From the NCBI RefSeq assembly GCF_002563695.1, contig NZ_PDJI01000004.1, positions 1,488,001 through 1,552,000 on the forward strand: DNA of 64,000 nt, written 5' to 3'. Source of the DNA: Georgenia soli (GTDB lineage Bacteria; Actinomycetota; Actinomycetes; Actinomycetales; Actinomycetaceae). Shown here piece after piece: positions 1,249-23,801 of this stretch. The notes beneath the pieces are model-generated. The model was not told where the DNA came from and ran no database searches. It was given only the letters and a program-made list of their open reading frames with translations. Positions within the stretch are counted from its first letter, which is position 1; the number at the start of each line of letters is the position of its first letter. Position numbers and translations under genes: made by a program.

Positions 1249-2361
1249 TCACTGCACGGGTTCCGCGGCGCCCCTGACGGCGTCCCCGAGGAGGTCCTCG
1301 ACGGTTGCGGCGAACTTCTCGACCACCCGGGTGACGTCCCGGGGCAGCACCTGGGCGCGCAGGCAGGCCTGGGCGAGCAGCTCGCGGACCTCGGCGGCCC
1401 CCGCCGCGACGGCGCCGGAGTCGACGAAGAAGTGGCGCAGCACCGCGGCGCCGGCGTCGTCGAGCGCGGGGTCGCCCCACAGGTGCTCGACGGCGGACCA
1501 GCCGGGATGCAGGCTCGCCCGCTCGACGAGCGTGGTCACCTTCCCCCGGCGCAGGTCCGAGCGGCGTGCGCGGTCGACGAGGACCTCGCGCACGTCGTCG
1601 ACGATCTGGTAGGCGACGCCGAGGCACTCCCCCACCGCCCACAGGTCGTCCTCCGAGCGGCCGGGGGCACCGGCGACCACGGCCCCGAGGACGAGCGGGC
1701 AGGCGAAGGAGTAGGCGGCGGTCTTGCCGCGGGCGACGGCGCGCACCGAGCCTGCGTCGGCCGGCAGCAGCCCGAGCTCGAGGGCGACGTCGCCGAGCTC
1801 GCCCATCACCGTGGTGCCGAGCGTGCGGGAGACGGTGCGCTGGACGGCGAGCGCCTCGCGGGCGGGCAGCTCCGCCGTCGCGAACAGGTGATGGGCGAGC
1901 CCGAGCGCCAGGTCGCCGGCGAGCACCGCGACGACCTCGCACCATCGCTGGGCGACGGCGACGTCCGCCCCGGCGAGCAGGGCACGCTCCCGGGCGATCG
2001 CGGCGAGGTTCGGGGTGCCGCGCCGCACGGTGTCGCCGTCGATGAGGTCGTCGTGCAGGAGGAACGCGCCGTGGAGCATCTCGATCCCGGCGGCCGCCCG
2101 CACCGCGGCGTCGTGCCGGGTGCCGCCGAACGCGTCGTGCGTGCGCAGGAGCAGCTGGGCGCGCAGGTGCTTGCCGCCGTCGACCAGGCGTCCGATCTCG
2201 TCCCAGACCAGGTGGCCCCACTCGCCGGCCTCGCCCGCGCCCCGGCGGGCCCCTACCTCCTCCGCCAGGAGCGTCCGGACACGGGCGGCCGTCGCCGGTG
2301 AGCCGCGGGCGCCGGTCACGGAGGCGTGCTCGTCGGTGTGCACGAGCCCAGTGAAGCACAT
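1249..2361 (-). CDS. Polyprenyl diphosphate synthase (trans-isoprenyl synthase family)
   Basis: All-alpha isoprenyl synthase that would condense isopentenyl diphosphate onto an allylic diphosphate. Seen: GGKHLRAQLL (conserved GGKxxRP-like element, about residues 63-72), first aspartate-rich motif DDLIDGD (104-110) and GKTAAYSF (about 213). The second aspartate-rich region is QIVDDVRE (252-259), which lacks the last Asp of the usual DDxxD, so catalytic competence is not certain. Start: ATG at 2361 gives 370 aa; GTG codons 7 and 14 codons downstream are possible alternatives and no strong ribosome site decides. It diverges from the ino1-ebo operon with 83 bp between the starts. A supply of the prenyl donor for the UbiA enzyme of that operon is my inference from position. 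Product chain length cannot be read from the sequence. Confidence 0.83.
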   Translation of the reverse strand: MCFTGLVHTDEHASVTGARGSPATAARVRTLLAEEVGARRGAGEAGEWGHLVWDEIGRLVDGGKHLRAQLLLRTHDAFGGTRHDAAVRAAAGIEMLHGAFLLHDDLIDGDTVRRGTPNLAAIARERALLAGADVAVAQRWCEVVAVLAGDLALGLAHHLFATAELPAREALAVQRTVSRTLGTTVMGELGDVALELGLLPADAGSVRAVARGKTAAYSFACPLVLGAVVAGAPGRSEDDLWAVGECLGVAYQIVDDVREVLVDRARRSDLRRGKVTTLVERASLHPGWSAVEHLWGDPALDDAGAAVLRHFFVDSGAVAAGAAEVRELLAQACLRAQVLPRDVTRVVEKFAATVEDLLGDAVRGAAEPVQ

Positions 2362-2409
2362 ACCTCGCCCGGGGCGACAGAAGTGCGTCTCAATTCCGGA
2401 CACATTTGT

Positions 2410-2437
2410 TTGACACTCGACGTAAGTGGACTACCGT
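2410..2437 (+). promoter_or_regulatory. Promoter of the ino1-ebo operon, leaderless
   Basis: A perfect -35 TTGACA (2410-2415), 16-bp spacer and -10 TACCGT (2432-2437) lie directly before the ATG at 2445. Only 7 nt separate the -10 from the start codon, so the transcript should begin at or next to the ATG. Confidence 0.7.
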
Positions 2438-2444
2438 CAGGCCC

Positions 2445-3659
2445 ATGCTCGATGACGACATCCGGACGACGACGTCCGCAACCATCCTGGCCGACGGCGA
2501 CGGGGATTCGCCGCGACGCACCGGCGTGTGGTTCATCGGCGGGCGCGGGTCGGTCGCCACGACCGCGACGCTGGGGCTCCATGCCGTCAGCCGGGGGCTC
2601 GCCCCGGAGACCGGGCTCGTCTCCCAGCTCGAGGAGGTCGCCCAGGCCGGGCTGGTCGGCTTCGACAGTCTCGTCGTCGGCGGGCACGACGTCGGCACGC
2701 ACAGCCTCGCCGACCGCGCGGCCGAGCTGGCCGAGGGCGGGGTCTTCCACCCGGCGCTCGTCGCGGCGCTGCGTGAGGAGCTCGACGCGGCCGACCGCCG
2801 GATCCGTCCCGGCGTCCCCGCCGGCGGCCACCAGCGTGAGGCCTCCGACCGCATCCAGCAGGACCTCACGGCCTTCCGGGACGAGCACGGCCTCGACCGC
2901 GTCGTCGTCGTCGACGTCTCGAGCACGGAGCCGCCCGCGCCCGACCACCCGGCTCTCCACGACCTCGACCGGCTCGAGCAGGAGCTCGACGCGGGGCGGG
3001 CGCCGCTGCCGCCGAGCTCGCTCTACTCCTACGCCGCCTTCCGGGCGGGCTGCCCCGTCGTCGCGTTCACCCCGAGCACGGGCCCGAACATCCCGGCGCT
3101 GGCCGACCTCGCCAAGGAGGCGGAGGTGCCGTGGGCCGGCCGCGACGGCAAGACGGGGGAGACGCTCGTCAAGGCGACCCTCGCGCCCCTCTTCGCCCGC
3201 CGCGCCCTTCACGTCCGTTCGTGGGCGGCGATGAATCTCCTGGGGGGCGGGGACGGCCGCACGCTCGCCGAACCGGCCGCCGCCGTCAGCAAGACGACGA
3301 CGAAGGCACTCACCGTCCAGTCGATCGTGGGGTACCCCGTGGAGGGCCCGGTGCGCATCGACTACGTCGAGGACCTCGGCGACTGGAAGACCGCCTGGGA
3401 CCACATCACCTTCGACGGGTTCCTCGGGACGAGGATGACCATGCAGTTCACGTGGCAGGGGTGCGACTCGGCGCTCGCCGCGCCGCTGGTGCTCGACCTC
3501 GCCCGGCTCGTCGCCCGCGCCCACGAGGTGGGCGAGAGCGGCCCGCTGGCACCGCTGGGCTTCTTCTTCAAGGAGCCGATCGGCGCGAGCACGCACGCCC
3601 TGGACGAGCAGTGGGCCACGCTCACGCGGTGGTGCGCCCGCCTGGCGCCGACGCCGTGA
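2445..3659 (+). CDS. ino1: Inositol-3-phosphate synthase family protein (sugar-phosphate cyclase)
   Basis: NAD-dependent cyclase of the myo-inositol-phosphate synthase family (glucose 6-phosphate to 1D-myo-inositol 3-phosphate), 404 aa. Seen: N-terminal Rossmann glycine motif GGRGSVATT (residues 32-40), the active-site region GRDGKTGETLVK (232-243), NLLGGGDG (264-271), and the family's C-terminal core QGCDSALAAPLVLD (338-351). The ATG at 2445 is chosen because a promoter ends 7 nt upstream. The stop overlaps the GTG of the UbiA gene by 3 nt. It is the first gene of the ebo-like operon, in the role normally held by the dehydroquinate-synthase-like EboD; both are NAD-dependent cyclases of sugar phosphates. 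The gene may serve this pathway rather than general inositol supply, since a housekeeping copy is usual in actinobacteria. Confidence 0.88.
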   Translation: MLDDDIRTTTSATILADGDGDSPRRTGVWFIGGRGSVATTATLGLHAVSRGLAPETGLVSQLEEVAQAGLVGFDSLVVGGHDVGTHSLADRAAELAEGGVFHPALVAALREELDAADRRIRPGVPAGGHQREASDRIQQDLTAFRDEHGLDRVVVVDVSSTEPPAPDHPALHDLDRLEQELDAGRAPLPPSSLYSYAAFRAGCPVVAFTPSTGPNIPALADLAKEAEVPWAGRDGKTGETLVKATLAPLFARRALHVRSWAAMNLLGGGDGRTLAEPAAAVSKTTTKALTVQSIVGYPVEGPVRIDYVEDLGDWKTAWDHITFDGFLGTRMTMQFTWQGCDSALAAPLVLDLARLVARAHEVGESGPLAPLGFFFKEPIGASTHALDEQWATLTRWCARLAPTP

Positions 3660-4573
3660 GCACCGCCCGGGACCTGGCGGAGCTCGTCCGCCTGCCGGCC
3701 GCGCTCTCGGTGCCCGGGGACACCCTGGCGGGCGCTGCGGCCGCCGGCTGGCCGCTCCGGCGGCGGACGCTGCTGGCCCCGCTGTCGTCGGTCTCGCTCT
3801 ACCTCGCCGGCATGGCGCTCAACGACTACGCCGACCGTCACCTCGACGCGACCGAGCGGCCCGAGCGGCCCATCCCGTCCGGCCGGGTCTCCCCGCGGCA
3901 GGCGCTCGCGCTGGCCGCGGGTCTGACCGGCGCGGGGGTCGCCCTCGCGGCCGGCGCGGGCCGAGGTGCCCTCGCCGTGGCCGTCCCGCTCGCCGGCGTC
4001 GTGTGGGGCTACGACATGCTCGCCAAGCCCACCGTGGCCGGGCCGGTGTTCATGGGCGCCGCCCGGGGGCTCGACGTCCTCCTGGGCGCGGGCGGGTCGG
4101 CCCGGGCGCTGCCGCCGGCGCTCGCCCTGGCGGCCCACACGATGGCGGTGACGGCGCTGAGCCGCGGCGAGGTCCACGGCACCCGGCCCGTCGTAGCCCG
4201 GGCCGCGGCGGCGACCACCGGTGCGACGGCGCTCGGCGTCGTCGTCGGGGCCGCGACCGCCGCGCGCGCGGGGGCCCGGGCCGACGCGCCCTCGTGCAGG
4301 GGCCGCGCCGGCACCGTCCGGCGGGTGCTCTCCGCCCTCACGGCCACCGCCCTGGCCGGGTCGTACGCCGCGTCCGTGGGCCGGGCGCAGCTGGCCGCCG
4401 TCGCCTCCCCCGACGCCGGGACGGTCCGCCGGGCCACCGGGACCGGCATCCGCGGCATGCTGCCGCTGCAGGCCGCGCTGGCCTCCGCCGCCGGTCACCC
4501 CGTGCTCGGCGGCGCCCTCGTCGGCGCCGTCCCCGCGCTGCGTGCGGCGGCGCGGAAGGTGGCGACGACGTGA
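3656..4573 (+). CDS. eboC: UbiA family prenyltransferase (EboC-like)
   Basis: Integral membrane prenyltransferase of 305 aa with about eight hydrophobic segments. It carries the first UbiA metal/diphosphate motif NDYADRHLD (residues 56-64) followed by ERPERPIPSGRVS, which is typical of the family. The second aspartate-rich motif of classical UbiA enzymes is not evident; the corresponding loop reads ALSRGEVHG. The GTG start lies in a GTGA overlap with the ino1 stop, and its own stop overlaps the next GTG, so translation is coupled on both sides. Known: EboC of ebo clusters is a UbiA homologue. Inferred: the prenyl donor comes from the divergent polyprenyl synthase and the acceptor is a cyclitol phosphate derived from the ino1 product. 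The substrate is not proven. Confidence 0.85.
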   Translation: MSTARDLAELVRLPAALSVPGDTLAGAAAAGWPLRRRTLLAPLSSVSLYLAGMALNDYADRHLDATERPERPIPSGRVSPRQALALAAGLTGAGVALAAGAGRGALAVAVPLAGVVWGYDMLAKPTVAGPVFMGAARGLDVLLGAGGSARALPPALALAAHTMAVTALSRGEVHGTRPVVARAAAATTGATALGVVVGAATAARAGARADAPSCRGRAGTVRRVLSALTATALAGSYAASVGRAQLAAVASPDAGTVRRATGTGIRGMLPLQAALASAAGHPVLGGALVGAVPALRAAARKVATT

Positions 4574-5433
4574 CGTTCACCCTCGCCTACGGCACCAACG
4601 GCTTCGCGGACCACCGCCTCGCCGACGCCCTCGCCGTCCTCGCCGACCTCGGCTACGGCGGCGTCTCCCTCACGCTCGACCACCAGCACCTCGACCCGTT
4701 CGCGCCGGACCTCTTCGACCGCACCCGGGACGTCGCCGGACTCCTCGACCGGTACGGCTTCGCGGTGGCGGTCGAGACCGGCGCCCGGTACGTGATGGAC
4801 CCGTTCCGCAAGCACGAGCCGACCCTGGTCTCCGACACCGACCGGGACCGGCGCGTCGACCTGCTGAACCGCGCCGTCGCGGTCGCGGCCGACCTGGGCG
4901 CCGACGTCGTCCACCTCTGGTCCGGGATCCTGCCCGACGGCGTGAGCGAGGAGACCGGCTGGGAGCGCGTCCTGGCCGGCGTCGAGACCGTCCTGACGAC
5001 GGCGGAGCGGGCCGGCGTCACCCTCGCCGTCGAGCCCGAGCCGGGCATGTTCCTCGACCGCGCCGCCCGGGTCGACGAGCTGCTCGACCGCCTCGGCCGG
5101 CCCGAGCGCCTGCGCATGACGCTCGACCTCGGCCACCTCACCTGCAACGAGGACGACCCGGTCGAGGTGCTGCGCCGCCACCGCGCGGACGTCGTCCACG
5201 TCCAGGTCGACGACATGCGGCGCGGCGTCCACGAGCACCTCGAGCTCGGGACCGGCGAGGTGGACCTGCCGCCGCTGCTCGGCCTGCTCGCCGAGACCGG
5301 CTACACCGGGCTGGTCGGGGTCGAGCTGCCCCGCCACTCCCACGCCGCGCCGGCCGTCGCCGCGCGCTCCATCGCGGCCCTGCGCGCCGCGATGACCACC
5401 GCCGGCCTTGCCACGCAAGGCGTGAACCAGTGA
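4570..5433 (+). CDS. Sugar phosphate isomerase/epimerase, xylose-isomerase-like TIM barrel
   Basis: Protein of 287 aa with the AP-endonuclease-2/xylose-isomerase-like fold. Candidate metal ligands are E155 or E157 (AVEPEPGMF), D186 and H189 (LDLGHLTCNEDDP), H210 (VVHVQVDD) and E252 (GVELPRHSH), in the order usual for this family. It starts with GTG in a GTGA overlap with the UbiA stop and is followed by eboA after 11 bp. Its place in the operon suggests that it isomerises or epimerises a cyclitol or sugar intermediate made by Ino1. It is distinct from EboE, the second TIM barrel of the operon. The substrate is unknown. Confidence 0.82.
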   Translation: MTFTLAYGTNGFADHRLADALAVLADLGYGGVSLTLDHQHLDPFAPDLFDRTRDVAGLLDRYGFAVAVETGARYVMDPFRKHEPTLVSDTDRDRRVDLLNRAVAVAADLGADVVHLWSGILPDGVSEETGWERVLAGVETVLTTAERAGVTLAVEPEPGMFLDRAARVDELLDRLGRPERLRMTLDLGHLTCNEDDPVEVLRRHRADVVHVQVDDMRRGVHEHLELGTGEVDLPPLLGLLAETGYTGLVGVELPRHSHAAPAVAARSIAALRAAMTTAGLATQGVNQ

Positions 5434-5444
5434 CAGGAGGAAGC

Positions 5445-6083
5445 ATGACCGAGCAGTCCCCACAGCTTCTCGACCTGCTGGCGCCGGACGTCCGGGACCG
5501 GCTCGCCGCGGCGGTCGCCCGGGTCGAGGAGGACCCGGCCGCCGTCGTCCGGCTCTTCGCCTCCGCCGGCCGCAAGGTCGGCCGCGGGCCCACTGATCCC
5601 GACGACGCTCTCGGCGTCGTCCACCCGCTCGTCGAGGACGTCGCCCGCGGCGAGCTGCTCGCGGCCCACGCCCGTGCCGCGGGCGACCGCGCCGCCGTCG
5701 TCGAGACGCTGCGCGACCTGTACGACCACGGCGACGGCGACGAGCGCCGCGCCGTCCTGCGGGCGCTCCCCCGCCTCGACGTCGGCGACGCCGCGGTGGA
5801 CCTGCTCCGCGACGCGCTGCGCACCAACGACGTCCGGCTCGTCGCCGCCGCGATGGGCCCGTACGCGACGGCGCACCTCGACGACGCGGCCTGGCGGCAC
5901 GGGGTCCTCAAGTGCCTCTTCGTCGGCGTGCCGCTGACGGCCGTGGACGGCCTGAAGGCACGCCGCGACGACGAGCTGGTGCGCATGCTCCGCGCCTTCC
6001 GGGAGGAGCGGACCGCCGCCGGGCGCGACTTCCCGGCGGACGGTCAGGCACTCCTCGACGCGGCCGACGCCCCGGCGTCCTGA
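5445..6083 (+). CDS. eboA: EboA domain protein
   Basis: A 212-aa protein, all-helical by appearance and rich in Ala, Asp, Arg and Leu. The signature is the C-terminal segment HLDDAAWRHG-VLKCLFVGVPL at residues 144-164, matching the conserved EboA pattern (HLP...W..AVLKA.F.G.PL). No signal peptide or membrane segment is seen. An AGGAGG site ends 4 nt before the ATG. Known: EboA is encoded in ebo clusters of cyanobacteria, Bacteroidetes and proteobacteria, and the ebo genes were linked to export of a scytonemin precursor in Nostoc; the biochemical role of EboA is not known. About 97 bp separate it from eboB. Confidence 0.85.
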   Translation: MTEQSPQLLDLLAPDVRDRLAAAVARVEEDPAAVVRLFASAGRKVGRGPTDPDDALGVVHPLVEDVARGELLAAHARAAGDRAAVVETLRDLYDHGDGDERRAVLRALPRLDVGDAAVDLLRDALRTNDVRLVAAAMGPYATAHLDDAAWRHGVLKCLFVGVPLTAVDGLKARRDDELVRMLRAFREERTAAGRDFPADGQALLDAADAPAS

Positions 6084-6180
6084 CGCGCGTCCGGGCGACC
6101 TCCCGACCTCTCGCACCCTCACCCCGCCCCGGCGTGCCCCACCCGGCCGAGACCCTCTCAACGACGAACAGGAGACGACC

Positions 6181-7056
6181 ATGCGCATCTTCGACCCGCA
6201 CATCCACATGACGTCGCGCACCACCGACGACTACGAGGCCATGCACGCCGCCGGTGTCCGGGCGGTGACCGAGCCGGCGTTCTGGCTGGGCCAGCCCCGT
6301 ACGTCCGTCGCGTCCTTCGTCGACTACTTCGACAGCCTGCTGGGCTGGGAGCGCTTCCGCGCCGCCCAGTTCGGCATCGTCCACCACGCCACGATCGCGC
6401 TGAACCCCAAGGAGGCGAACGACCCGCGCTGCCGCGAGGTCCTCAAGGTCCTCCCCCGGTACCTGGAGAAGGACGGCGTCGTCGCCGTCGGGGAGCTCGG
6501 GTTCGACTCGATGACGGACGAGGAGGAGGACGTCTTCGTCCGCCAGCTCGAGCTCGCCGGCGAGCACGACCTCCCGGCGCTGGTCCACACCCCGCACCGC
6601 GACAAGGCGGCCGGGACGCGGCGCACGCTCGACGTCGTCGCCAAGGTCGGGCTCGCCCCCGAGCGCGTGCTGGTGGACCACCTCAACGAGCCGACCGTGC
6701 AGATGGTCGCCGACTCGGGGTGCTGGATGGGCTTCTCCATCTACCCGGACACCAAGATGGCGCCGGACCGCATGGTCCGGATCCTGCAGGAGCACGGCCT
6801 GGACCGGATGATCGTCAACTCCGCCGCGGACTGGGGCCGCAGCGACCCGCTGACCACCCTCAGGACCGGGGAGGCGATGCTCGCGGCCGGCTTCTCCGAC
6901 GACGACGTCGACAAGGTGCTCTGGCGCAACCCCGTCGAGTTCTACGGCCAGAGCGGCCGGCTCCTCCTCGCCGAGGAGGACACCGCTCCCACGACCGGCG
7001 CAACCTTCGAGGGCAACTCGATCCTGCGCGGCGAGCCGCTCTCCACGGGGCGCTGA
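6181..7056 (+). CDS. eboB: EboB, TatD-related metal-dependent hydrolase
   Basis: Amidohydrolase-superfamily protein of 291 aa. Predicted metal ligands are H7 and H9 (FDPHIHM), E105 (VGELGFD), H136 (LVHTPHR), H167 (LVDHLNE) and D217 (NSAADWG), all present, so a binuclear metal site is likely intact. AGGAG lies 6-10 nt before the ATG at 6181. Known: EboB proteins form a branch of the TatD family, and their substrate is not established. The stop is 1 nt before the GTG of eboE, so the two are translationally linked. A cytoplasmic phosphoester or amide hydrolysis step is the usual expectation for this fold; that is inference. Confidence 0.87.
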   Translation: MRIFDPHIHMTSRTTDDYEAMHAAGVRAVTEPAFWLGQPRTSVASFVDYFDSLLGWERFRAAQFGIVHHATIALNPKEANDPRCREVLKVLPRYLEKDGVVAVGELGFDSMTDEEEDVFVRQLELAGEHDLPALVHTPHRDKAAGTRRTLDVVAKVGLAPERVLVDHLNEPTVQMVADSGCWMGFSIYPDTKMAPDRMVRILQEHGLDRMIVNSAADWGRSDPLTTLRTGEAMLAAGFSDDDVDKVLWRNPVEFYGQSGRLLLAEEDTAPTTGATFEGNSILRGEPLSTGR

Positions 7057-7057
7057 C

Positions 7058-8221
7058 GTGCGGCTGCGTCATCCCGACGGCTCGACCGTCCACCTCGCGT
7101 ACTGCACCAACGTCCACCCCGCCCAGGACGTCGCCGGGCTCGTCGACCAGATCGACCGGTACTGCGGCGGCGTCCGCGAGCGCCTGGGCGTCGACCGGCT
7201 CGGCGTCGGGCTCTGGCTGCCCGCCGTCGCCGCGCACGCCCTGGCCGCCGACGCCGACGACCTGGCGCGGGTCCGCACGGCGCTCGAGCGGGCCGGCTGC
7301 GAGGTCGTCACGCTCAACGCCTTCCCGTACGGGCACTTCCACGCCCCGGTGGTCAAGCGGGACGTCTACGTCCCGGACTGGACCGAGGACGCCCGGCTGG
7401 ACTACACCCTCGCCTGCGCGGAGGTGCTCGCCGCCCTGATGCCCGACGACGCCGACCGGGGCAGCATCTCCACGCTGCCCCTCGCCTGGCGCACGCCGTG
7501 GGACGACGGCCGCCGCGCTGCGGCCCGGGCGAAGCTGGTCGCCCTCGACGAGGCGCTCGCGGACCTGCGCCGTCGCACCGGGCGCACGGTACGGGTGGCC
7601 CTCGAGGCCGAGCCGGGCTGCGTCGTCGAGACCTCCGAGCAAACGGCCGCGGAGCTGGCCGGCATCGGCGAGCACGTGGGTGCCTGCGTGGACCTGTGCC
7701 ACCTGGCCACCGAGTTCGAGGACCCGGCGGAGGCCGCCGCCACGCTGGCCGACGCCGGGGTGCCGGTCGTGAAGACCCAGGTCTCCGCCGCGCTGCACGC
7801 CGAGCACCCGGCCGAGGAGGCCACCCGCGCCTCGCTCGCCGCGTTCGCCGAGGACCGGTTCCTGCACCAGACGCGGGCCCAGCTGGACGGCCGGGTCGAG
7901 CGCCGCGACGACCTGCCCGAGGCCCTGGCCGGCGACCTGCCCGACGACGGGCCGTGGCGGGTGCACTTCCACGTGCCCCTGCACGCCGGGCCGGAGGCCG
8001 AGGGGCTGCGCAGCACCACCGACGTCCTCGAGGACGGCCTGCGCACGCTCGTGGGCGGGGCGTCCCCGCTCGTCGACCACCTCGAGGTCGAGACGTACAC
8101 GTGGTCCGTGCTGCCCGAGGGCGTACGGCCGAAGACCGACGACGATCTCGTCGCCGGGATCGCCGCCGAGCTGTCCTGGACGGCGGCCCGGCTCGAGACG
8201 ATGGGAGTGACAGCACGGTGA
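7058..8221 (+). CDS. eboE: EboE, TIM-barrel metabolite traffic protein
   Basis: A 387-aa xylose-isomerase-like TIM barrel of the EboE family, opening with the characteristic LAYCTNVHP (residues 13-21). Later come ALEAEPGCVVET (181-192) and CVDLCHLATEFEDP (210-223), supplying likely acidic and histidine ligands, then VHFHVPLH and LEVETYTW near the C terminus. The GTG start follows the eboB stop by 1 nt, and its TGA overlaps the GTG of eboF. Known: EboE proteins occur only with other ebo genes and are annotated as metabolite traffic proteins because an ebo mutant of Nostoc retains a secondary-metabolite precursor in the cytoplasm. The chemistry is unknown. Confidence 0.87.
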   Translation: MRLRHPDGSTVHLAYCTNVHPAQDVAGLVDQIDRYCGGVRERLGVDRLGVGLWLPAVAAHALAADADDLARVRTALERAGCEVVTLNAFPYGHFHAPVVKRDVYVPDWTEDARLDYTLACAEVLAALMPDDADRGSISTLPLAWRTPWDDGRRAAARAKLVALDEALADLRRRTGRTVRVALEAEPGCVVETSEQTAAELAGIGEHVGACVDLCHLATEFEDPAEAAATLADAGVPVVKTQVSAALHAEHPAEEATRASLAAFAEDRFLHQTRAQLDGRVERRDDLPEALAGDLPDDGPWRVHFHVPLHAGPEAEGLRSTTDVLEDGLRTLVGGASPLVDHLEVETYTWSVLPEGVRPKTDDDLVAGIAAELSWTAARLETMGVTAR

Positions 8222-9597
8222 GCGACAAGATCCTCGTCCTCGACGTCGTCGGCCTGACGCCGCGCGCGCTGCAGCACATGAACAGCCTGCGCACGGTCGC
8301 GGCCGCGGGGTTCCAGGCCGAGCTCGGCACGGTCCTGCCGGCCGTGACCTGCTCCGCGCAGTCGACGTTCCTGACCGGGCTCATGCCGCGCGACCACGGG
8401 ATCGTCGGCAACGGCTGGTACTTCCGCGAGCTCGGCGAGGTCTTCCTCTGGCGCCAGCACAACAAGCTGGTCGGCGGGGAGAAGGTCTGGGAGACGATCC
8501 GGCGCGAACGGCCCGACTACAAAGTGGCGAACGTGGGCTGGTGGTACGCCATGGGGTCCACCACCGACACCACCATCACCCCCCGGCCCGTCTACCACGC
8601 GGACGGGCGCAAGGACCCGGACTGCTGGACATGGCCGCCGGAGCTGCACGACGAGCTCGTCGCCGAGCTGGGGCCGTTCCCGCTCTTCACGTACTGGGGG
8701 CCGACGGCCGACATCAGCAGCTCGAGGTGGATCGTCGCCGCGGCACGCCGGCTCATGCCGCAGCACGACATGACGCTGGTCTACGTGCCGCACCTGGACT
8801 ACGACCACCAGCGCTTCGGCCCGGACTCCCCCGAGGCGGTGCGGGCGGCGCAGGAGCTCGACGACACCCTCGCCCCGCTCCTCGCCGACGCGCGGGACTC
8901 CGGCACGACCGTCGTCGTCCTGTCCGAGTACGGGATCACGCCGGTCTCCCGTCCGGTCGACATCAACCGGGCCCTGCGCCGGGCCGGCCTGCTCCACGTC
9001 CACACGAACGCGACCGGCGAGCTGCTGGACCCGTGGACGTCGCGCGCCTTCGCCGTCGCCGACCACCAGGTGGCCCACGTCTACGTCGACGACCCGGCGG
9101 ACCGGGACCACGTGGCCGCGCTCCTGCGGGACCTGCCCGGGGTGGCCGAGGTGCTCGACGACGACGGGAAAACTCGGTACGGGCTGGACCACGCGCGGGC
9201 CGGCGACCTCGTCGCCGTCGCGGAGGCGGACGCGTGGTTCACCTACTACTACTGGCTCGACGACGACCGGGCACCCGACTTCGCCCGGCTGGTCGAGATC
9301 CACAAGAAGCCCGGCTACGACCCGGCCGAGCTGTTCATGGACCCCGAGGACCGTTGGGTCAAGCTCCGCGCCGCCACGGCCCTGGCCCGGAAGAAGGCGG
9401 GGATGCGCTACGCGATGCAGGTCGTCCCGCTCGACCCCTCGCCGGTCCGGGGCAGCCACGGGCGGCTGCCGGACAACCCGGAGGACGCCCCCGTCCTGCT
9501 GTGCTCCGACCCGGCCGCGCGCCGCGAGAGCATGGGCGCGACCGAGGTGCGGGACCTCATCCTCGAGCTCGTCGGGGCGCCGGTCCCGACGCACTGA
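8218..9597 (+). CDS. eboF: EboF-like nucleotide pyrophosphatase/phosphodiesterase family protein
   Basis: Alkaline-phosphatase-superfamily enzyme of 459 aa. Asp9 (VLDVVG) and the nucleophile Thr44 in PAVTCSAQST (41-50) match the phosphodiesterase active site; HLDYDHQRFG (192-201) supplies Asp194 and His197. The usual SDHG metal motif reads SEYG (236-239), a conservative change seen in part of this family. No signal peptide, so it should act in the cytoplasm. The GTG start overlaps the eboE stop (GTGA). It is the last gene of the operon, and a perfect palindrome 130 bp downstream may end the transcript. Inferred role: removal or transfer of a phosphoryl or nucleotidyl group in the ebo pathway. 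Confidence 0.85.
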   Translation: MSDKILVLDVVGLTPRALQHMNSLRTVAAAGFQAELGTVLPAVTCSAQSTFLTGLMPRDHGIVGNGWYFRELGEVFLWRQHNKLVGGEKVWETIRRERPDYKVANVGWWYAMGSTTDTTITPRPVYHADGRKDPDCWTWPPELHDELVAELGPFPLFTYWGPTADISSSRWIVAAARRLMPQHDMTLVYVPHLDYDHQRFGPDSPEAVRAAQELDDTLAPLLADARDSGTTVVVLSEYGITPVSRPVDINRALRRAGLLHVHTNATGELLDPWTSRAFAVADHQVAHVYVDDPADRDHVAALLRDLPGVAEVLDDDGKTRYGLDHARAGDLVAVAEADAWFTYYYWLDDDRAPDFARLVEIHKKPGYDPAELFMDPEDRWVKLRAATALARKKAGMRYAMQVVPLDPSPVRGSHGRLPDNPEDAPVLLCSDPAARRESMGATEVRDLILELVGAPVPTH

Positions 9598-11173: not shown

Positions 11174-14100
11174 TCAGCCGAGGGAGTCGATGACCGCATC
11201 CGCGTCGCGGACGAGCAGCTCGTGGTCGGTGGCCCCGACGAACCGCTCGAGGGCGTCGACGGCCTGAGCCGTGCGGCCGGCCTCGACGTGACGCGCCGCC
11301 TGGTCGAGGAACGCCTCGAGCCGCTTGGCGTCAGAGTTCCTCAGCTCGCCCTCGGTGACCAGCTTCTCGAGGTGCGCCTTCAGCGAGTCGAGGCTGGCCT
11401 CGACCGTGAACGTCACCTCGTGCGTGCTGGCGTGGCCCGCGGCGTCGGTGGCCGTCACGGTGAGCGTGTGCTCGCCGAGGGCCAGCGTCGCCAGGTCGAT
11501 CCTGCCGACCTCGACGGCCTCGCCGTCGATCTGGGCGGTGACCTCGGCGATGCCGGACGTCGCGTCGGTGGCGTCGACCGCCAGCTCGACGACGTCCGCC
11601 GAGCCGTAGGCCTTCTCCTCGATCCCGCTGACCGACAGCTCCGGCGCTACCGTGTCGATGCTGACCGTGACGCTCCCGCTCTCGGAGACGTTCCCGCCCG
11701 AGTCGGTGGCGCGGTAGGTGAGCTCGTGGACGCCGTCCGCGGTCAGACGCACCGGGCTGACGGCCCCGGTCCGGCTGTTGCGGACGTTGGTCCAGGTCGC
11801 ACCGCCGTCGAGCGAGTACTCGACCGACGTGAGCTGGCCGTTGTCCGACGCCGCGAGCTGGACGGTCACCGGGCCGGTGACGTGCCAGCCGTTCTCGCCG
11901 TCGGCCTCCGGGGTCACCGTGTGGGAGACCTCGGGGGCGGTGACGTCGGTGACCCCCGCGCCGACGAAGGTGAGCCGGTCGAGCTCCACCCCGCCGGTGG
12001 AGGTCACGTACACGGTCCCAGAGCCCTCCGGGAACGCGGTCACGGCCGCGTCGACGTCGGACCAGTCGCCGGAGGAGACGTTCGCCGTGGCGAACGGCTC
12101 GGCGTCGGGCGAGCCCCAGCGCAGGGCGATGGTGCCCTCGCCGGCGCCACGGACCGTCACGCCGTCGATGCCGGTGAAGTTGACCGGCTCGAAGGCGATG
12201 TGGTCACCCGCGTCGAGCGACGTCACCTTGGACAGCGCGCCGGCCGTCTCGTCCTCGACCACCTCGACGCCCTCGAGGACGTCGGCGTGCTCCGCCTCCT
12301 TGACGAAGGGGTTGAGGATGATCGACACCTCGCCCTGGGCGGGCGGGATGTCGCCGTGGCCGCTGTCCGTGTACGTGGCGACGACGACGCCGAACAGCTT
12401 CTCGGTCTCGCCGTGCTCGGGCGCGTCGGCCGGGGTGTTCCAGACGCCGGCGCAGCCGGATCCGAGCACCTCGGGGTGGGCGTGGGTGTCGTGCCCGAGA
12501 CCGAAGGTCCAGGACAGGCGCGAGCAGGTCGTCTCGGTGCCGTCCTCCGGGTCGTTCGTGGAGAACTTGAACGGCACCGCGTCGCCCCAGCTGAAGAAGG
12601 CGCCGTCGGCCGGGTAGTCCAGCGTGAGCGTCGGGGCCTGGTTGCCCACGGTGATCACGCGGGAGGTGATGCCCGTCCTGCCCTGCGGGTCGGCGACCCG
12701 CAGGCGGGCGGTGAACTGACCGAGCTCGGTGTAGGTGTGCGTCACCGTGGCGCCGGTGGCGTCGAAGGTGCCGTCACCGTCGAGGTCCCAGTCATAGGTG
12801 AGCGCGCCACCCTCGGGGTCGGAGGAGCCGGAGCCGTCGAACGTGACGGTGAGCGGCGCCTCGCTGCTCGAGATCGGGTCCGCGGCGATGACGGCCTGGG
12901 GAGCCTTGTTCCCCGCGGCGAAGTCGATCCGGTACAGGCCCGCCTCGGGGTTCTGCCGGAAGAAGCCGTTGCCGTAGTCGAGCACGTACAGCGAGCCGTC
13001 GGGACCGAACTCCATGTCGATCGGGCTGTCGGTGATCGCCTGGACGTTGTTCCGCAGCGCCGCGTTGGGCAGGAAGTGCTCGATGTGGGTGACCTCGCCG
13101 TCCGGGTCGTCCTGGCTGAGGACGGCGATGTAGTCCTGGGAGAACTCGTAGAAGAAGGTCTTCCCGTCCCAGTACTCGGGGAACTTGGTCGGGCTGTCGA
13201 GCTCGGGGTCGTACCGGTAGGTCGGTCCGCCCATCGGGCCCTGGCCGCCCTGCGGGTCGAAGTCGGTCAGCTCGGGCCACGGCTGGTCGTCGGTCCGGTC
13301 GCCGTACCACAGCTGAGGAGCCGTGGCGGGCGGCAGGACGTCCAGCCCCGTGTTCCAGCGGGAGTTGTTCTCCGCGCCGGCCTCGCAGTCGAACCACGGG
13401 CCGGGCGTGCCGGTCGCGAAGTCCCACTCGTTGTAGTTGGCGTTCGGGCCGTGGCAGTACGGCCATCCGCCGTTGAGCGGCGTCGTGGTGCGCTGCCACT
13501 CGACGTAGCCCATGGGGCCGCGGTCGTCGCTGGCGGTGCCGGAGTCAGGGCCGTAGTCGCCCCAGCTCACGGCGTCGGTGACCGGGTCGATGGTCATCCG
13601 GAACGGGTTGCGCAGACCGGTGGTGAAGATCTCGGGCCGCGTGCCCTCGGTACCCGGCTCGAACAGGTTCCCCTCAGGGATCGTGTACGAGCCGTCCTCC
13701 TGCACCGAGATTCGCAGGATCGAGCCCCGCAGGTCGTTCGTGCTGCCCGCCCCCCGGCGAGCGTCGAACCCGGGGTTCATGCCCGGGGCGTCGTTGTTCG
13801 GCGCGAACCCGTTCGCGCCCGGCGTTCCGGCCGGGGTGTTGTCGCCCGTGGACAGGTAGAGGTTGCCCTCGGAGTCGAAGTCGACGTCGCCGGCGACGTG
13901 GCAGCACTGGCCGCGCTGGACCTCGACCTTGAGGATGACCTGCTCCGTGCTCAGGTCGAGCGCCTGCGCCTCGGGGTCCCACTTGGCGCGCGTGAGCTGG
14001 TTGTAGCCCTTCCACTGGTCCCAGTAGGAGTCGTCCGCGCCGGCGGGGAGACTGTTCGGCGCCGAGCCGGACGGCGTCGTCGTCGGGTAGCCCTCGCCCT

Positions 14101-14491
14101 CCATCACGCGGGGGGCGTAGTAGAGGTAGACCCAGCCGTTCTCCTCGAAGTCCGGGTCGAGGGTCGCCGTCTGCAGCCCGTCCTCGCTGTTGGCGTAGAC
14201 GTCGATGGTGTTGACGATCTTCGTGACGCCCGAGTCGGGGTCCGTCAGCCGGATGTCACCGTTGCGTGCGGTGTGCAGGACCTTCCCGTCCGGCATCACC
14301 GCCATGCCGATGGGCTCACCGACGTTCTTGGTGAGCAGGATCTTCTCGTAGTTCGACCAGTCGAGGGCCTCGGCGGCCCCCGCCTCCTGCGAGTGGTCGA
14401 CCCCGTCGTGGGCGTACGCCGCCTGGGGCACGGCCAGAGCGGCTGCTGCCGCAATCGCCAGCGCGGCGACGCGCAACCTCTTACTCTTCAA
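11174..14491 (-). CDS. Secreted PQQ-dependent sugar dehydrogenase-like protein with PKD, carbohydrate-binding and Ig-like domains
   Basis: A 1105-aa secreted multidomain protein. Signal peptide 1-27 (cleavage near AYA/HDG); a soluble glucose/sorbosone-dehydrogenase-type six-bladed propeller at about 42-525 (GEPIGMAVMPDGKVL, CCHVAGDVDFDSEGNLYLST, FTTGLRNPFR, MEFGPDGSLYVLDYG); a PKD domain at about 528-614 (FDGSGSSDPEGG, YDWDLDGDG); an unassigned stretch 615-728; a CBM6/35-like module at 729-844 (KEAEHADVLEG); two Ig/OmpL47-like modules at 854-1030; and a helical C-terminal FIVAR-like tail. The TTG start at 14491 is chosen over an ATG 48 bp upstream because AAGGAAG precedes it and the signal peptide has normal length. 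Likely oxidises or binds extracellular polysaccharide-derived sugars; the substrate is unknown. Confidence 0.82.
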   Translation of the reverse strand: MKSKRLRVAALAIAAAAALAVPQAAYAHDGVDHSQEAGAAEALDWSNYEKILLTKNVGEPIGMAVMPDGKVLHTARNGDIRLTDPDSGVTKIVNTIDVYANSEDGLQTATLDPDFEENGWVYLYYAPRVMEGEGYPTTTPSGSAPNSLPAGADDSYWDQWKGYNQLTRAKWDPEAQALDLSTEQVILKVEVQRGQCCHVAGDVDFDSEGNLYLSTGDNTPAGTPGANGFAPNNDAPGMNPGFDARRGAGSTNDLRGSILRISVQEDGSYTIPEGNLFEPGTEGTRPEIFTTGLRNPFRMTIDPVTDAVSWGDYGPDSGTASDDRGPMGYVEWQRTTTPLNGGWPYCHGPNANYNEWDFATGTPGPWFDCEAGAENNSRWNTGLDVLPPATAPQLWYGDRTDDQPWPELTDFDPQGGQGPMGGPTYRYDPELDSPTKFPEYWDGKTFFYEFSQDYIAVLSQDDPDGEVTHIEHFLPNAALRNNVQAITDSPIDMEFGPDGSLYVLDYGNGFFRQNPEAGLYRIDFAAGNKAPQAVIAADPISSSEAPLTVTFDGSGSSDPEGGALTYDWDLDGDGTFDATGATVTHTYTELGQFTARLRVADPQGRTGITSRVITVGNQAPTLTLDYPADGAFFSWGDAVPFKFSTNDPEDGTETTCSRLSWTFGLGHDTHAHPEVLGSGCAGVWNTPADAPEHGETEKLFGVVVATYTDSGHGDIPPAQGEVSIILNPFVKEAEHADVLEGVEVVEDETAGALSKVTSLDAGDHIAFEPVNFTGIDGVTVRGAGEGTIALRWGSPDAEPFATANVSSGDWSDVDAAVTAFPEGSGTVYVTSTGGVELDRLTFVGAGVTDVTAPEVSHTVTPEADGENGWHVTGPVTVQLAASDNGQLTSVEYSLDGGATWTNVRNSRTGAVSPVRLTADGVHELTYRATDSGGNVSESGSVTVSIDTVAPELSVSGIEEKAYGSADVVELAVDATDATSGIAEVTAQIDGEAVEVGRIDLATLALGEHTLTVTATDAAGHASTHEVTFTVEASLDSLKAHLEKLVTEGELRNSDAKRLEAFLDQAARHVEAGRTAQAVDALERFVGATDHELLVRDADAVIDSLG

Positions 14492-14664
14492 TGTGGCACT
14501 TCCTTCTCGCCGATGGGTGTGCTGTGGGGCCCCCGTCATCCCCGTCGCTGCAACGACGGACCTCAGGGTGACGGGGTGCTTCGCGTGGAGGTTCTGTCAG
14601 GTTCCTTTCTTCCGAGGCGCCCGGGCCTGCCGCGGTGCGGGCCCGAGACTGTCGACGAGCGCCG

Positions 14665-14712: not shown

Positions 14713-15717
14713 CTAACGCGTGCTGAACGCCGCGTCGAACGCCGCCGCGGACGGCTCGAAGGAGAGCTTGCGGACGAAGGCCAGCGCCTCCGGCGCCCCC
14801 ACGAGGCGGTCCATCCCGGCGTCCTCCCACTCCACCGAGAGCGGGCCGTCGTAACCGATCGTGTTCAGCATCCGGATCGCGTCCTCCCACGGCACGTCGC
14901 CGTGGCCGGTGCTGATGAAGTCCCAGCCGCGGCGCGGGTCGGCCCACGGCAGGTGCGAGCCGAGCCGCCCGTTGCGGCCGTTGCCGACGCGGCGCTTCGA
15001 GTCCTTGCAGTGCACGTGGTAGATCCGGTCCTTGAAGTCCCACAGGAAGCTCACCGGGTCGAGGTCCTGCCACATGAAGTGGCTGGGGTCCCAGTTGAGC
15101 CCGAAGGCCTCCCGGTGCCCGATCGCCTCGAGGGCCCGCACGGTGGTCCAGTAGTCGTAGGCGATCTCGCTGGGGTGGACCTCGTGGGCGAACCGCACGC
15201 CCACCTCGTCGAAGACGTCGAGGATGGGGTTCCACCGGTCGGCGAAGTCCTGGTAGCCGGCCTCGACCATCTCGTCCGACGCCGGCGGGAACATGGCCAC
15301 GTACTTCCAGATCGAGGAGCCGGTGAACCCGGTGACGGTCCTGACACCGAGCCGGGCGGCGGTGCGCGCCGTCATCTTCAGCTCCTCGGCGGCCCGCTGC
15401 CGGACCCCCTCCGGGTCGCCGTCGCCCCACACGCGGTCGGAGAGGATGTCGCGGTGACGCTGGTCGATGGGGTCGTCACAGACGGCCTGGCCCTTGAGGT
15501 GGTTGGCGATCGTCCAGACCTTCAGGCCGTACCGCTCGAGGATGTCGAGCCGGTCCTGGATGTAGGCGTCGTCCTCGGCGCCGCGCCACGGGTCGAGGTG
15601 GTCGCCCCAGCAGGCGATCTCCAGGCCGTCGTACCCCCACTCCGACGCGAGGCGGGCGACCTCCTCGAAGGGCAGGTCGGCCCACTGGCCGGTGAACAGC
15701 GTGATCGGTCGTGCCAT
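14713..15717 (-). CDS. Sugar phosphate isomerase/epimerase (cytoplasmic TIM barrel)
   Basis: A 334-aa xylose-isomerase-like barrel without a signal peptide. Predicted metal and proton-relay residues are E179 (FAHEVHPSE), D210 and H213 (NWDPSHFMW), H236 (HVHCKDS) and E296 (LSVEWEDAG). GAGGAGAG precedes the ATG, which lies 10 bp after the stop of the Gfo/Idh/MocA gene, so the two form an operon. Pairs of this kind commonly process 3-keto-glycosides, cyclitols or anhydro-sugars; the exact substrate cannot be read here. Confidence 0.85.
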
Positions 15718-20908: not shown

Positions 20909-22129
20909 ATGGCGATTCTGCAGACCGCGGACAACGGCGTCGCCCGGCACTGGAACCAGCCCGCCCTGCCCAGCAGCGCCGGCAGTCTCTTCCAGCTGCT
21001 CCGGGACGGCAGCCCCCGCACCCGCGCCGAGCTCGCGGCCGTCACCGGCCTGGCTCGGTCCACCATCTCCGCACGCGTGGACGACCTCCTCGCGTCGTCC
21101 CTCGTCACGCCGACCGGCGAGGCGGCCTCCACGGGCGGTCGGCCACCGGCGACCTTCGCGTTCAACCCCGGCGCACGCATCGTCGTCGCCGTCGACCTCG
21201 GCGTCAGCCACGCACGCGTCGCCGTGACCGACCTCGCGAGCCACGTCCTCGCCGAGGAGACGTTCGACCGGTCGATCGCCGACGGCCCGGTCGCCGTCCT
21301 CGGCGCCGTCACGAAGACGGCAGTGCGCCTCGTGGAGAAGGTGGGCAGGCCGCTGACCGACCTCGCGGGCGTCGGGATCGGGCTCCCGGGCCCGGTCGAG
21401 TACGAGACCGGCCGCCCCACGAGCCCGCCGGTCATGCCCGGCTGGGACCGCTTCGACGTCCCCGGGCACCTGCGCGAGACCTTCCCGGTGCCGATCCTCG
21501 TCGACAACGACGTCAACATCATGGCCCTGGGCGAGCACGAGGCCGTGTACCGCGACGTCGAGGACATGATCCTCGTCAAGATCGCGTCCGGCATCGGCGC
21601 CGGAATCATCAGCGACGGCCAGCTCCAGCGCGGGGCGCAGGGCGCCGCCGGCGACCTCGGCCACATCGCGGTGCCCGACGGCAACAGCACACCGTGCACC
21701 TGCGGCAACGTCGGCTGCCTCGAGGCGGTCGCCTCCGGCCCGGCGGTCGCCGGGCGGCTGCGCGAGGAGGGGTACACCGTCGAGACCAACTCCCAGCTGG
21801 TCGAGCTGGTCCGGTCCGGCGACCGTGGCGCCGTCCAGGCCGTGCGACAGGCCGGTCGGGACATCGGGTCGGTGCTCGCCGGCTGCGTCAACATGCTCAA
21901 CCCCTCGGTCATCGTCATCGGCGGCGTCGTGGCCGCCGTCGGCGAGCATCTGCTCGCCGGCATCCGGGAGTCGGTCTACAGCCGCTCCCTGCCCCTGGCC
22001 ACGCAGCACCTGCGGATCGTCAGCTCCCGCACCGAGGGGCGCGCGGGGATCCTTGGCGCCTCCGCGCTCGTCACGCAGCACGCGCTGTCCGCCGAGGGCG
22101 TCAACGCCCTCACCGACGCGACTGCCTGA
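20909..22129 (+). CDS. ROK family transcriptional regulator (NagC/XylR type)
   Basis: A 406-aa repressor. N-terminal winged helix-turn-helix (about residues 20-75, RAELAAVTGLARSTISARVDDL) followed by the ROK sugar-kinase-like domain (VAVDLGVSHARVAVTDL, IGLPGPV, DNDVNIMALGEHE). The zinc-binding signature GHIAVPDG with CTCGNVGCLE is complete. Divergent from the ABC importer and therefore the likely sugar-responsive repressor of that operon. Confidence 0.9.
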   Translation: MAILQTADNGVARHWNQPALPSSAGSLFQLLRDGSPRTRAELAAVTGLARSTISARVDDLLASSLVTPTGEAASTGGRPPATFAFNPGARIVVAVDLGVSHARVAVTDLASHVLAEETFDRSIADGPVAVLGAVTKTAVRLVEKVGRPLTDLAGVGIGLPGPVEYETGRPTSPPVMPGWDRFDVPGHLRETFPVPILVDNDVNIMALGEHEAVYRDVEDMILVKIASGIGAGIISDGQLQRGAQGAAGDLGHIAVPDGNSTPCTCGNVGCLEAVASGPAVAGRLREEGYTVETNSQLVELVRSGDRGAVQAVRQAGRDIGSVLAGCVNMLNPSVIVIGGVVAAVGEHLLAGIRESVYSRSLPLATQHLRIVSSRTEGRAGILGASALVTQHALSAEGVNALTDATA

Positions 22130-22557: not shown

Positions 22558-22746
22558 ATGGCGCCGAGCACGCACCGCCGGTCTGCGAACGACACCGCAC
22601 AGCGCGACGCGCGGCCGTTCCCGTTGAGCCGCACGGCCCCGTGCCGTGCCTTCCGTGCAGCCGTCGGCGGACCTCCCCGCGTCCGCCGCTCACCACGCCT
22701 CCGGCCGCTGGGCCGGGGCGCCACTCGGATCGGAGAGATCTCATGA
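22558..22746 (+). CDS. Possible 62-aa leader peptide overlapping the multicopper oxidase start
   Basis: ATG 22558 follows GAGGGGG by 7 nt, and the frame ends with a TGA that overlaps the oxidase ATG (ATGA). The peptide is Arg/Pro-rich with three His and one Cys, and resembles no family I know. Third-position GC is about 80 percent, lower than in real neighbours, so it may be a translated leader or simply an open stretch. Confidence 0.3.
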
Positions 22747-23801
22747 CTCAAGCAGAAGCGAACACCGGGACGTCGGCGCGCCCCTTCTCTCGACGCTCGA
22801 TGATGGCCGGTGCCGCCGCCGGCCTCGTCCCTGCTCTCGCGGCCACGTTCGCCGGTCCTCCGGCGGCCGCGGACCCAGCAGGAAGGCCGAACCCGGGCGA
22901 CGGGAACGCGGCCGGCCGAGGCGGTGAGACCCGGCGGATCACGATGTACGCCGAGAAGCTGCCGGGCAACATGGTCGGCTACGGACTCGCCCCCGGCGAG
23001 GCCACCGTGCCGGGGCCGGTGCTGGAGATGTGGGAGGGCGACACCCTCGAGATCGAGCTGGTCAACACCACGGACAAGCGCCTGTCGATCCACCCGCACG
23101 GCGTCGACTACGACGTCGACTCCGACGGCAGCCCGTTCAACGGCTCCTTCAACGAGCCGGGCGAGACCCGCACGTACGTGTGGCGCTCGCACGCCCCGTA
23201 CCGCTCGGGCAACCAGTGGGTGCCAGGGAGCGCGGGGTACTGGCACTACCACGACCACGCGATGGGGACCGACCACGGCACCGGCGGCATCAAGGCCGGG
23301 CTGTACGGAGCGCTCGTGGTGCGGCGCAAGGGCGACGTGCTCCCCGACCGCCAGTTCACGGTCGTCTTCAACGACATGACGATCAACAACCGTGTCGCCC
23401 CGCACGCCCCGATGTTCGAGGCCAACCTCGGCGAGCGCGTGGAGTTCATCGCCATCGGCCACGGCAACGCCCTGCACACGTTCCACCTGCACGCGCACCG
23501 CTGGGCATACAACCGCACGGGCATCCTCGAGGGCCCGAACGACCCCAGCCAGGTGATCGACAACCGCGACCTCAACCCAGGCGACTCCTTCGGCTTCCAG
23601 GTGCTCGCCGGCGAGATGGTCGGGGCCGGAGCGTGGATGTACCACTGCCACGTCCAGTTCCACTCCGACGGCGGGATGGCCGGGATCTTCCTGGTGCGCA
23701 ACGCCGACGGCTCCATGCCCGACGGCGCACAGGAGGCGATCGACCGGTTCCAGGACCACGGCTCAGGCGGCCGCACCGGCCACACCACGCAGAACGACTG
23801 A
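22743..23801 (+). CDS. Two-domain multicopper oxidase, small laccase type
   Basis: A 352-aa secreted copper oxidase. Tat signal peptide ([12 protein letters not shown], cleavage near AAA/DPA). The four copper motifs are present in order: [27 protein letters not shown] and the T1-containing [10 protein letters not shown]. The length and two-cupredoxin layout match bacterial small laccases (SLAC, about 340 aa), which work as trimers, rather than three-domain laccases. GGAGAG precedes the ATG by 5 nt. Expected to oxidise phenolic or metal substrates outside the membrane. The promoter and long leader upstream suggest regulated expression. Confidence 0.93.

Follow-up and report, generated by a model that had tools for sequence, protein, structure and literature searches.

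The usual form of the ebo gene cluster in Actinomycetota carries a myo-inositol-1-phosphate synthase (MIPS) gene, Ino1, and a xylose-isomerase-like TIM-barrel gene, here called TIM2, and sequence comparison indicates that these two genes together occupy the place held in other ebo clusters by EboD, and that this exchange has taken place at least twice. We describe this form from a 64,000-nucleotide stretch of the Georgenia soli genome (G000:C4:1488001-1552000, hereafter "the window"), in which a seven-gene operon runs on the forward strand with a divergent prenyl synthase gene on its left flank. The known ebo operon, eboABCDEF (PMC5133447; in Nostoc, PMC6282210), has in common with the Georgenia form EboA, EboB, the UbiA-type EboC, EboE and EboF in one operon and the same predicted product class, an isoprenoid-cyclitol. 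The Georgenia form differs in having no EboD and in having Ino1, TIM2, a UbiA of the SCO3242 type and neighbors of the glucose/sorbosone-dehydrogenase (GSDH) type, with a prenyl diphosphate synthase (PPS) adjacent in some lineages. Phenotypically, the Nostoc ebo mutants studied retain scytonemin monomer in the cytoplasm, and whether nematodes eat Pseudomonas fluorescens depends on ebo, both as related in PMC6282210.

Within the operon, Ino1, of the archaeal type, comes first (2445-3659, +; PF07994 151 bits, PF01658 108 bits) and is followed by the UbiA-superfamily prenyltransferase, an EboC of the SCO3242 type (3656-4573, +; NF045897 356.6 bits, cut-off 260), TIM2 (4570-5433, +; PF01261 147.6 bits), the HEAT-like helical protein EboA (5445-6083, +; NF035938 156 bits, cut-off 50), the TatD-like metallo-hydrolase EboB (6181-7056, +; PF01026 50 bits), EboE (7058-8221, +; NF035939 424.2 bits, cut-off 250) and the type I phosphodiesterase/alkaline-phosphatase-like EboF (8218-9597, +; PF01663 210.6 bits). 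PPS lies on the opposite strand (1249-2403, -; PF00348 113.5 bits); its GTG start is the most upstream one possible, the actual start may lie downstream of 2403, and its nearest NCBIfam model, that of the family-2 encapsulin cargo polyprenyl transferase, scores under the cut-off. The HEAT match of EboA is weak and under its cut-off, and the narrower EboA_family model NF035937 is not passed (62.9 versus 320 bits). The window EboB is 66-83% identical to actinobacterial EboBs, and EboB and EboF are 42-56% and 36-58% identical, respectively, to their haloarchaeal, Gemmatirosa, Nitrospirota and Algoriphagus counterparts. A preliminary description of this DNA had named the eboC (UbiA), eboA, eboB, eboE, eboF-like, Ino1 and PPS genes, all of which were found where it had put them, but it omitted TIM2. 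From the overlaps of 1-8 nt that it reported, three of 4 nt stand (Ino1/UbiA, UbiA/TIM2 and EboE/EboF), and the other junctions are gaps of 1 nt (EboB/EboE), 11 nt (TIM2/EboA) and 97 nt (EboA/EboB).

EboD is missing from the cluster, as that description had it, and from the rest of the genome as well. No EboD was found in the Georgenia genome. Its single match to the dehydroquinate (DHQ) synthase family, located at C4:173908 and 1.3 Mb distant from the window, is taken for AroB, being the sole DHQ-synthase homologue present; against three EboDs this protein reaches 112-131 bits, compared with 369-407 bits for the EboDs among themselves. Across 13 EboE-bearing relatives and a Nitrospirota metagenome-assembled genome (MAG), the DHQ-synthase family members that could be compared are mostly nearer to AroB than to EboD. 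Those of two relatives (G150 and G204) are slightly nearer to EboD, with best scores (162 and 104 bits) far under the EboD level and positions distant from the clusters, and no comparison was obtained from L149, where the match is very weak (22.9 bits).

The same pattern extends across the phylum. EboE hidden Markov model (HMM) searches of two evenly drawn sets gave matches in 14 of 296 genomes of the phylum and 98 of 394 genomes of the class, the class set re-including the class members of the phylum set. We fetched 98 loci with about 9-10 kb per side where the contig allowed, comprising the EboE places over the cut-off and one broken phylum-set match (G279); the window's own place is not among them. 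Ino1 is present in 85 of the 98 and EboD in none. With six loci without detected EboB or EboF left out (L244, L251, L280, L283, L294 and L295), Ino1 is present in 84 of the remaining 92 clusters, EboD again in none, and Ino1 and TIM2 together in 81. Among the eight clusters counted as lacking Ino1, the contig stops upstream in three (L236, L269 and L270), and in another (L232) the start of Ino1 gives way to a run of N. In another set of 78 actinobacterial loci, which was seeded by similarity and shares at least 14 of them with the HMM-sampled set (the counts are not summed), Ino1 occurs in 69 and EboD in none, and the other nine are all cut at a contig end with 0-2 bases left upstream.

EboD, in turn, occurs without Ino1 in nine loci, one from Algoriphagus and eight on plasmids (Azospirillum, Ketogulonicigenium, Deinococcus twice, Salipiger, Mycetohabitans, Roseivivax and Aureibacter). 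Nine of the ten whole clusters opened from non-actinobacterial bacteria carry EboD, and the tenth, from Gemmatirosa, carries Ino1 and no EboD. Plasmid records with EboE numbered 48, of which ten were opened (9 of 16 non-actinobacterial, 1 of 32 actinobacterial), and those with Ino1 numbered 44, of which 11 were opened in addition to that of Streptomyces camelliae, reached through EboE. No locus among all those fetched holds EboD and Ino1 together, and the mutual exclusion anticipated for the two genes is thus borne out. A search for EboD proteins in the 394 class genomes gave no match at E 1e-40, in a run that had no positive control and showed at most four scored candidates per genome, and an EboD-type cluster may exist in some Actinobacteria. 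The Ino1 form is the usual ebo type of Actinobacteria throughout the phylum, and the idea that it is special to the Georgenia genome was rejected.

The exchange is one of two genes for one. TIM2 accompanies Ino1 in 81 of the 84 HMM-sampled Ino1 clusters and also occurs in Gemmatirosa and the Nitrospirota MAG; three haloarchaeal clusters have weaker TIM2 relatives (29-34%), and none of the nine EboD-type loci has a TIM2 match (a different annotated sugar isomerase lies near the Ketogulonicigenium cluster). A swap of one cyclase for one cyclase, as the preliminary description would have it with Ino1 alone replacing EboD, was rejected since this second TIM barrel comes with Ino1. Structurally, the nearest solved relatives of TIM2 are IolE and L-ribulose-5-phosphate 3-epimerase, and E155, D186, H189 and E252, invariant in all 27 aligned rows, are consistent with the residues that serve metal and acid-base roles in ketose epimerases. 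TIM2 and EboA matches fall on one open frame, likely as TIM2-EboA fusions, in 10 of 176 actinobacterial loci (from overlapping sets), which suggests that the two proteins touch; TIM-barrel/EboA fusions in Actinobacteria were reported in 2016 (PMC5133447).

The Ino1-TIM2 pair also occurs outside ebo, in three opened YcaO clusters on plasmids of Roseomonas, Hymenobacter and Methylobacterium (L195, L196 and L198), each with Ino1, a TIM2-like barrel 41-43% identical to that of the window and a YcaO-like protein, the gene for which was located by BLAST in the unannotated Methylobacterium record. The two annotated records also carry Gfo/Idh/MocA and PIG-L deacetylase genes, to which Roseomonas adds a glycosyltransferase, and these clusters look like a pathway to an inositol-based pseudo-disaccharide or thiol-type compound. 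The ebo cluster of G279 (L032) is damaged-looking, with the middle part of EboE missing, and the genome holds an Ino1-TIM2 pair on another contig (L207), whose Ino1 groups with those of the YcaO clusters; no YcaO was found beside L207.

Beyond Actinomycetota, a plasmid of Gemmatirosa kalamazoonensis (Gemmatimonadota) carries EboE, EboB, EboF, UbiA, Ino1 and TIM2 together, with no DHQ synthase found in a search that covered the plasmid. Three haloarchaeal plasmids (Halocatena, Halobaculum and Natronococcus) carry EboB, two TIM barrels, UbiA, Ino1 and EboF; the Ino1 of Halomarina, the fourth from haloarchaea to be opened, stands among glycosyltransferases. The Nitrospirota MAG carries the Ino1 type split over three contigs, with TIM2-UbiA-EboA-EboB, EboE-EboF and Ino1 each on its own. 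Evolutionarily, a joined EboB+EboE+EboF tree of 33 rows groups the Nitrospirota row with the actinobacterial Ino1 type (support 100/100) and places Gemmatirosa within the EboD-type clade, as sister to two Deinococcus EboD-type rows (100/100). The EboF tree again puts Gemmatirosa within EboD-type rows (100/99 and 100/97). Constraining all Ino1-type rows to one clade cost 179.5 log-likelihood units (p 3.9e-14 in an approximately unbiased, AU, test), and on this test we rejected the view that Ino1-type clusters arose once; the group was set by cyclase type, with an EboF tree of the same tendency already seen and EboF itself included in the joined alignment.

Ino1 itself tells a matching story in a tree of 65 rows, in which 31 actinobacterial cluster Ino1s (30 drawn at random from 82, and that of the window) form one clade (100/98) and 18 housekeeping rows, including that of Georgenia, form a separate clade on a very long branch (100/100), as the preliminary description had predicted for a cluster-specific Ino1. 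The Gemmatirosa Ino1 falls outside the actinobacterial cluster clade, its exact placement being unsure (88/77). With its core genes among EboD-type rows and its Ino1 outside that clade, Gemmatirosa therefore cannot simply have received its Ino1 or its core from the actinobacterial type, and at least two exchanges between EboD and Ino1 are indicated by these trees.

What might such a cluster make? We judge the chances about even that the Ino1 form produces a prenylated cyclitol membrane lipid by way of Ino1, TIM2 and UbiA. Ino1, with its catalytic residues intact, would convert glucose 6-phosphate to myo-inositol phosphate, and TIM2, by fold and residues a putative metal-dependent sugar or inosose isomerase, would alter either the cyclitol or the sugar phosphate. 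UbiA, bound to the membrane, would then join a prenyl chain to the cyclitol, its putative acceptor, with prenyl diphosphate presumably drawn from the adjacent PPS in Georgenia, and EboF, EboB and EboE may trim or remodel phosphate and ring, the predicted product being a prenylated cyclitol lipid of the membrane. EboD-type clusters would place a different ring, probably made from sedoheptulose 7-phosphate, in the same role, so that the conserved element would be a ring polyol anchored by an isoprenoid. With the least certainty of all, the lipid may help to move or present small molecules outward to secreted beta-propeller enzymes (ScyE in scytonemin biosynthesis, the GSDH type here). An isoprenoid-cyclitol product was proposed for ebo in 2016 (PMC5133447) and a cyclitol-headed lipid carrier in 2018 (PMC6282210); hence the polyprenyl-cyclitol carrier offered by the preliminary description as a concrete model of ebo has strong comparative support for its cyclitol core and was not new. 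An inositol or inositol-phosphate head group is a specific prediction, because no publication on the Ino1 form of ebo was found among the open-licence papers searched; the word "inositol" is absent from those found to name Ebo proteins, including the main text of PMC5133447.

Functionally, the cluster Ino1 looks active. It passes both MIPS Pfam domains (PF07994 and PF01658), and its closest solved structure is 1u1i, an archaeal MIPS, with homology across residues 28-400 of 404. The protein of 1u1i was also solved as 3qvw, 3qvx and 3qw2, which differ from it at Lys, Lys and Asn, respectively; the window Ino1 keeps all three of these residues, and the tested MIPS catalytic sites (a Lys/Asn/Asp set with Lys 274, 278, 306 and 367 and Asn 255 as numbered in the archaeal enzyme) are invariant in all 159 cluster Ino1 rows, near-duplicates from the overlapping sets included. 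It thus shares homology and all tested catalytic residues with archaeal MIPS (1u1i, 3qvs) and differs by its setting in an ebo operon with TIM2. The mycothiol-type Ino1 (TIGR03450; 1gr0) belongs to the common superfamily and differs as a separate deep branch, and Georgenia has both: the window Ino1 scores 27.8 bits against TIGR03450 (cut-off 638), the housekeeping copy elsewhere in the genome scores 705.8 bits, and the two are 29% identical over 195 residues (E 9e-14). That the cluster Ino1 is the sole inositol-phosphate synthase of the genome was rejected on finding this second copy, PF07994 having detected one Ino1 in the genome and being silent in Corynebacterium glutamicum as well. Ino1 chemistry might instead be altered, such that a keto-cyclitol phosphate is released or a sugar phosphate isomerized by TIM2 is used, and the resulting ring would resemble the EboD product more than myo-inositol phosphate does. 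This would account for the need of a second enzyme, and it fits both the regular pairing with TIM2, whose PF01261 barrel has IolE and ketose or ribulose-phosphate 3-epimerases as relatives, and a further match of the query to 6k96, a five-membered-cyclitol-phosphate synthase; the unbroken conservation of the catalytic lysines and Asn favors the complete MIPS reaction, however, and we consider altered chemistry unlikely.

The prenylation step of the proposed cyclitol-lipid pathway concerns UbiA, which passes the model of the SCO3242 family (a family name to which no function is attached) and does not pass the sister model, the EboC equivalog NF035940 (122.2 bits, cut-off 250). Its Asp-rich motif NDxxDxxxD and second motif are present, with N56, D57, D60, D64 and Y119 invariant and D120 and K124 nearly so across an alignment of 41 UbiAs from the two cluster types; N56, D57, D60, D64, R71, Y119 and R137 are common to EboD-type EboC. 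Residues A15/N15, D22 and S45 are suggestive of differences specific to each type. One of three weak matches is to 6m31 (22.7 bits), a digeranylgeranylglyceryl phosphate (DGGGP) synthase, which shares the UbiA superfamily and differs in its glycerol-based acceptor and weak similarity. The group that DGGGP synthase prenylates is an alcohol on a polyol phosphate. The closest relatives reported for EboC are DGGGP synthases and archaeal UbiA (PMC6282210). As for the donor, PPS is divergent and upstream in the window and five further loci (L042, L045, L048, L059 and L064), the first gene on the same strand in three (L019, L216 and L239), the last gene on the same strand in four (L026, L277, L213 and L214), converging in L031 and farther away in L067, L079, L089 and L226. 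Because it sits at different operon ends, these arrangements suggest that PPS was recruited repeatedly and that the cluster needs prenyl diphosphate.

Several observations weigh against a prenylated cyclitol lipid as the product. The evidence on Ino1-type clusters is comparative. Sugar-phosphate cyclases yield a ring that retains a ketone but not the phosphate, and inositol phosphate is the reverse, with its phosphate retained and no ketone; the EboD and Ino1 rings are therefore not simple equivalents. The four Ino1-less clusters with upstream room divide evenly: L264 and L032 lack both Ino1 and TIM2, and L020 and L228, which are second-copy clusters in two genomes of one genus that also hold Ino1-bearing clusters (L021 and L240), keep UbiA and TIM2 without Ino1. 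Three further clusters of the HMM-sampled set have Ino1 with no TIM2 detected. The haloarchaeal clusters lack EboA and any clear EboE; PPS homologues are a minority, in 17 of the 207 loci scanned across the fetched stretch; and GSDH occurs in just 2 of 13 non-actinobacterial loci, those of Algoriphagus (EboD-type) and Natronococcus. Finally, quinolines are what the EboC homologues assayed so far prenylate, and the 14 acceptors described in PMC9235831 were aromatic, with no cyclitol among them.

This last point leads to another reading, in which UbiA/EboC prenylates an aromatic compound and Ino1 with TIM2, or EboD, supplies a separate sugar-like block that is joined later or serves as a glycoside or cyclitol decoration. 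The EboD-type EboC homologue UbiA-297 farnesylates the quinolines 8-HQA and quinaldic acid with farnesyl diphosphate (PMC9235831), which also upholds the dependence of EboC homologues on a prenyl donor, and the Streptomyces camelliae plasmid cluster is flanked by an aromatic prenyltransferase and a methyltransferase. However, the conserved core of either ebo type has no aromatic-ring enzymes, and the Nostoc ebo mutants (eboD not included) all accumulate the same finished monomer, with no gene-specific phenol-indolic metabolites in them (PMC6282210). We therefore regard an aromatic acceptor as an improbable alternative and retain the cyclitol as the likelier one.

Beside the operon, the window encodes on the opposite strand, between 9960 and 20874, a TIM barrel with a long N-terminal extension, a large and presumably secreted protein with GSDH, PKD and CBM6 domains by Pfam (11174-14539, -; 1.6 kb past EboF), the xylose-isomerase-like TIM barrel TIM4 (14713-15717, -; PF01261 147 bits), a Gfo/Idh/MocA protein and then a sugar-type ABC transporter. 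A ROK-type regulator follows (20909-22129, +), this name and that of the transporter being read from the sequence, as are those of a multicopper-oxidase-like open reading frame (ORF; 22641-23801) and a helicase-like ORF truncated by the left edge of the window. Across the HMM-sampled clusters, a GSDH-type protein lies within 3 kb of 46 of the 92 (13 abut upstream on the same strand) and a TIM4 homologue lies equally near to 28, in 21 cases at no more than 30 bases or with an overlap. The GSDH-type neighbors scanned have the glucose/sorbosone-dehydrogenase fold with PKD or cupredoxin domains and are presumably secreted. No GSDH-type protein was found at the 21 loci with EboE alone, and the 22 genomes searched hold 0-14 GSDH-family matches each, so chance placement would, by rough estimate, yield far fewer such neighbors. 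In seven actinobacterial loci, a ScyD/ScyE-like protein (as annotated in S. camelliae, the NHL match being weak) precedes the operon, and the periplasmic ScyE is what the ebo genes of Nostoc serve (PMC6282210); we infer that ebo lipids are linked to secreted beta-propeller enzymes. A catabolic cluster, in which ebo, GSDH, TIM barrels, Gfo/Idh/MocA and sugar ABC transporters import and break down oxidized sugars or cyclitols and UbiA and Ino1 provide an accessory lipid, would suit these GSDH and TIM4 frequencies, the window's Gfo/Idh/MocA, two TIM barrels and sugar-type ABC transporter (read from ORFs) and the sugar-uptake genes near haloarchaeal and Azospirillum clusters, but it is very improbable given that Ino1 is a biosynthetic cyclase, that Gfo/Idh/MocA is within 3 kb of just 8 of the 92 clusters and that the ebo cluster studied in most depth works in exporting a pigment precursor.

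Further features were seen at individual loci. An inositol-monophosphatase family gene lies upstream of the two second-copy clusters (L020:16366-17301, with PF00459, and L228:15390-16325) and at no other scanned locus, its gain in these related clusters probably being one event. A ferritin-like protein (PF12902 in L186) and another protein lacking an assignment stand ahead of EboD-type clusters in the unrelated bacteria Mycetohabitans and Aureibacter (L186:2069-5087 and L191:1043-4103). Sixteen loci (L296-L311), all from one actinobacterial family (group f90), hold EboE relatives under the cut-off that mostly match the first 242 positions only, with no other ebo gene in the fetched stretch.

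More broadly, we posit, as a possibility that we hold to be rather doubtful, that ebo is one prokaryote-wide prenyl-cyclitol lipid system with swappable ring modules (EboD for a C7 ring, Ino1 with TIM2 for an inositol-type ring), whose lipid would serve secreted beta-propeller enzymes (ScyE-like and GSDH-type), such that the "metabolite traffic" associated with ebo would be the delivery of small molecules to these enzymes outside the membrane. The chemistry of ebo has been unsolved since the operon was named in 2016, yet it decides the export of a sunscreen precursor in Nostoc. Two unrelated cyclases swapped within one operon, at least two times, amount to a natural experiment on what the pathway needs, which would be a ring polyol. 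The Ino1 form, known from actinobacteria and archaea, points chemists to a prenylated ring-sugar lipid, and it offers a head group that could be labeled with commercial inositol in laboratory actinobacteria, so that the system would become directly testable.

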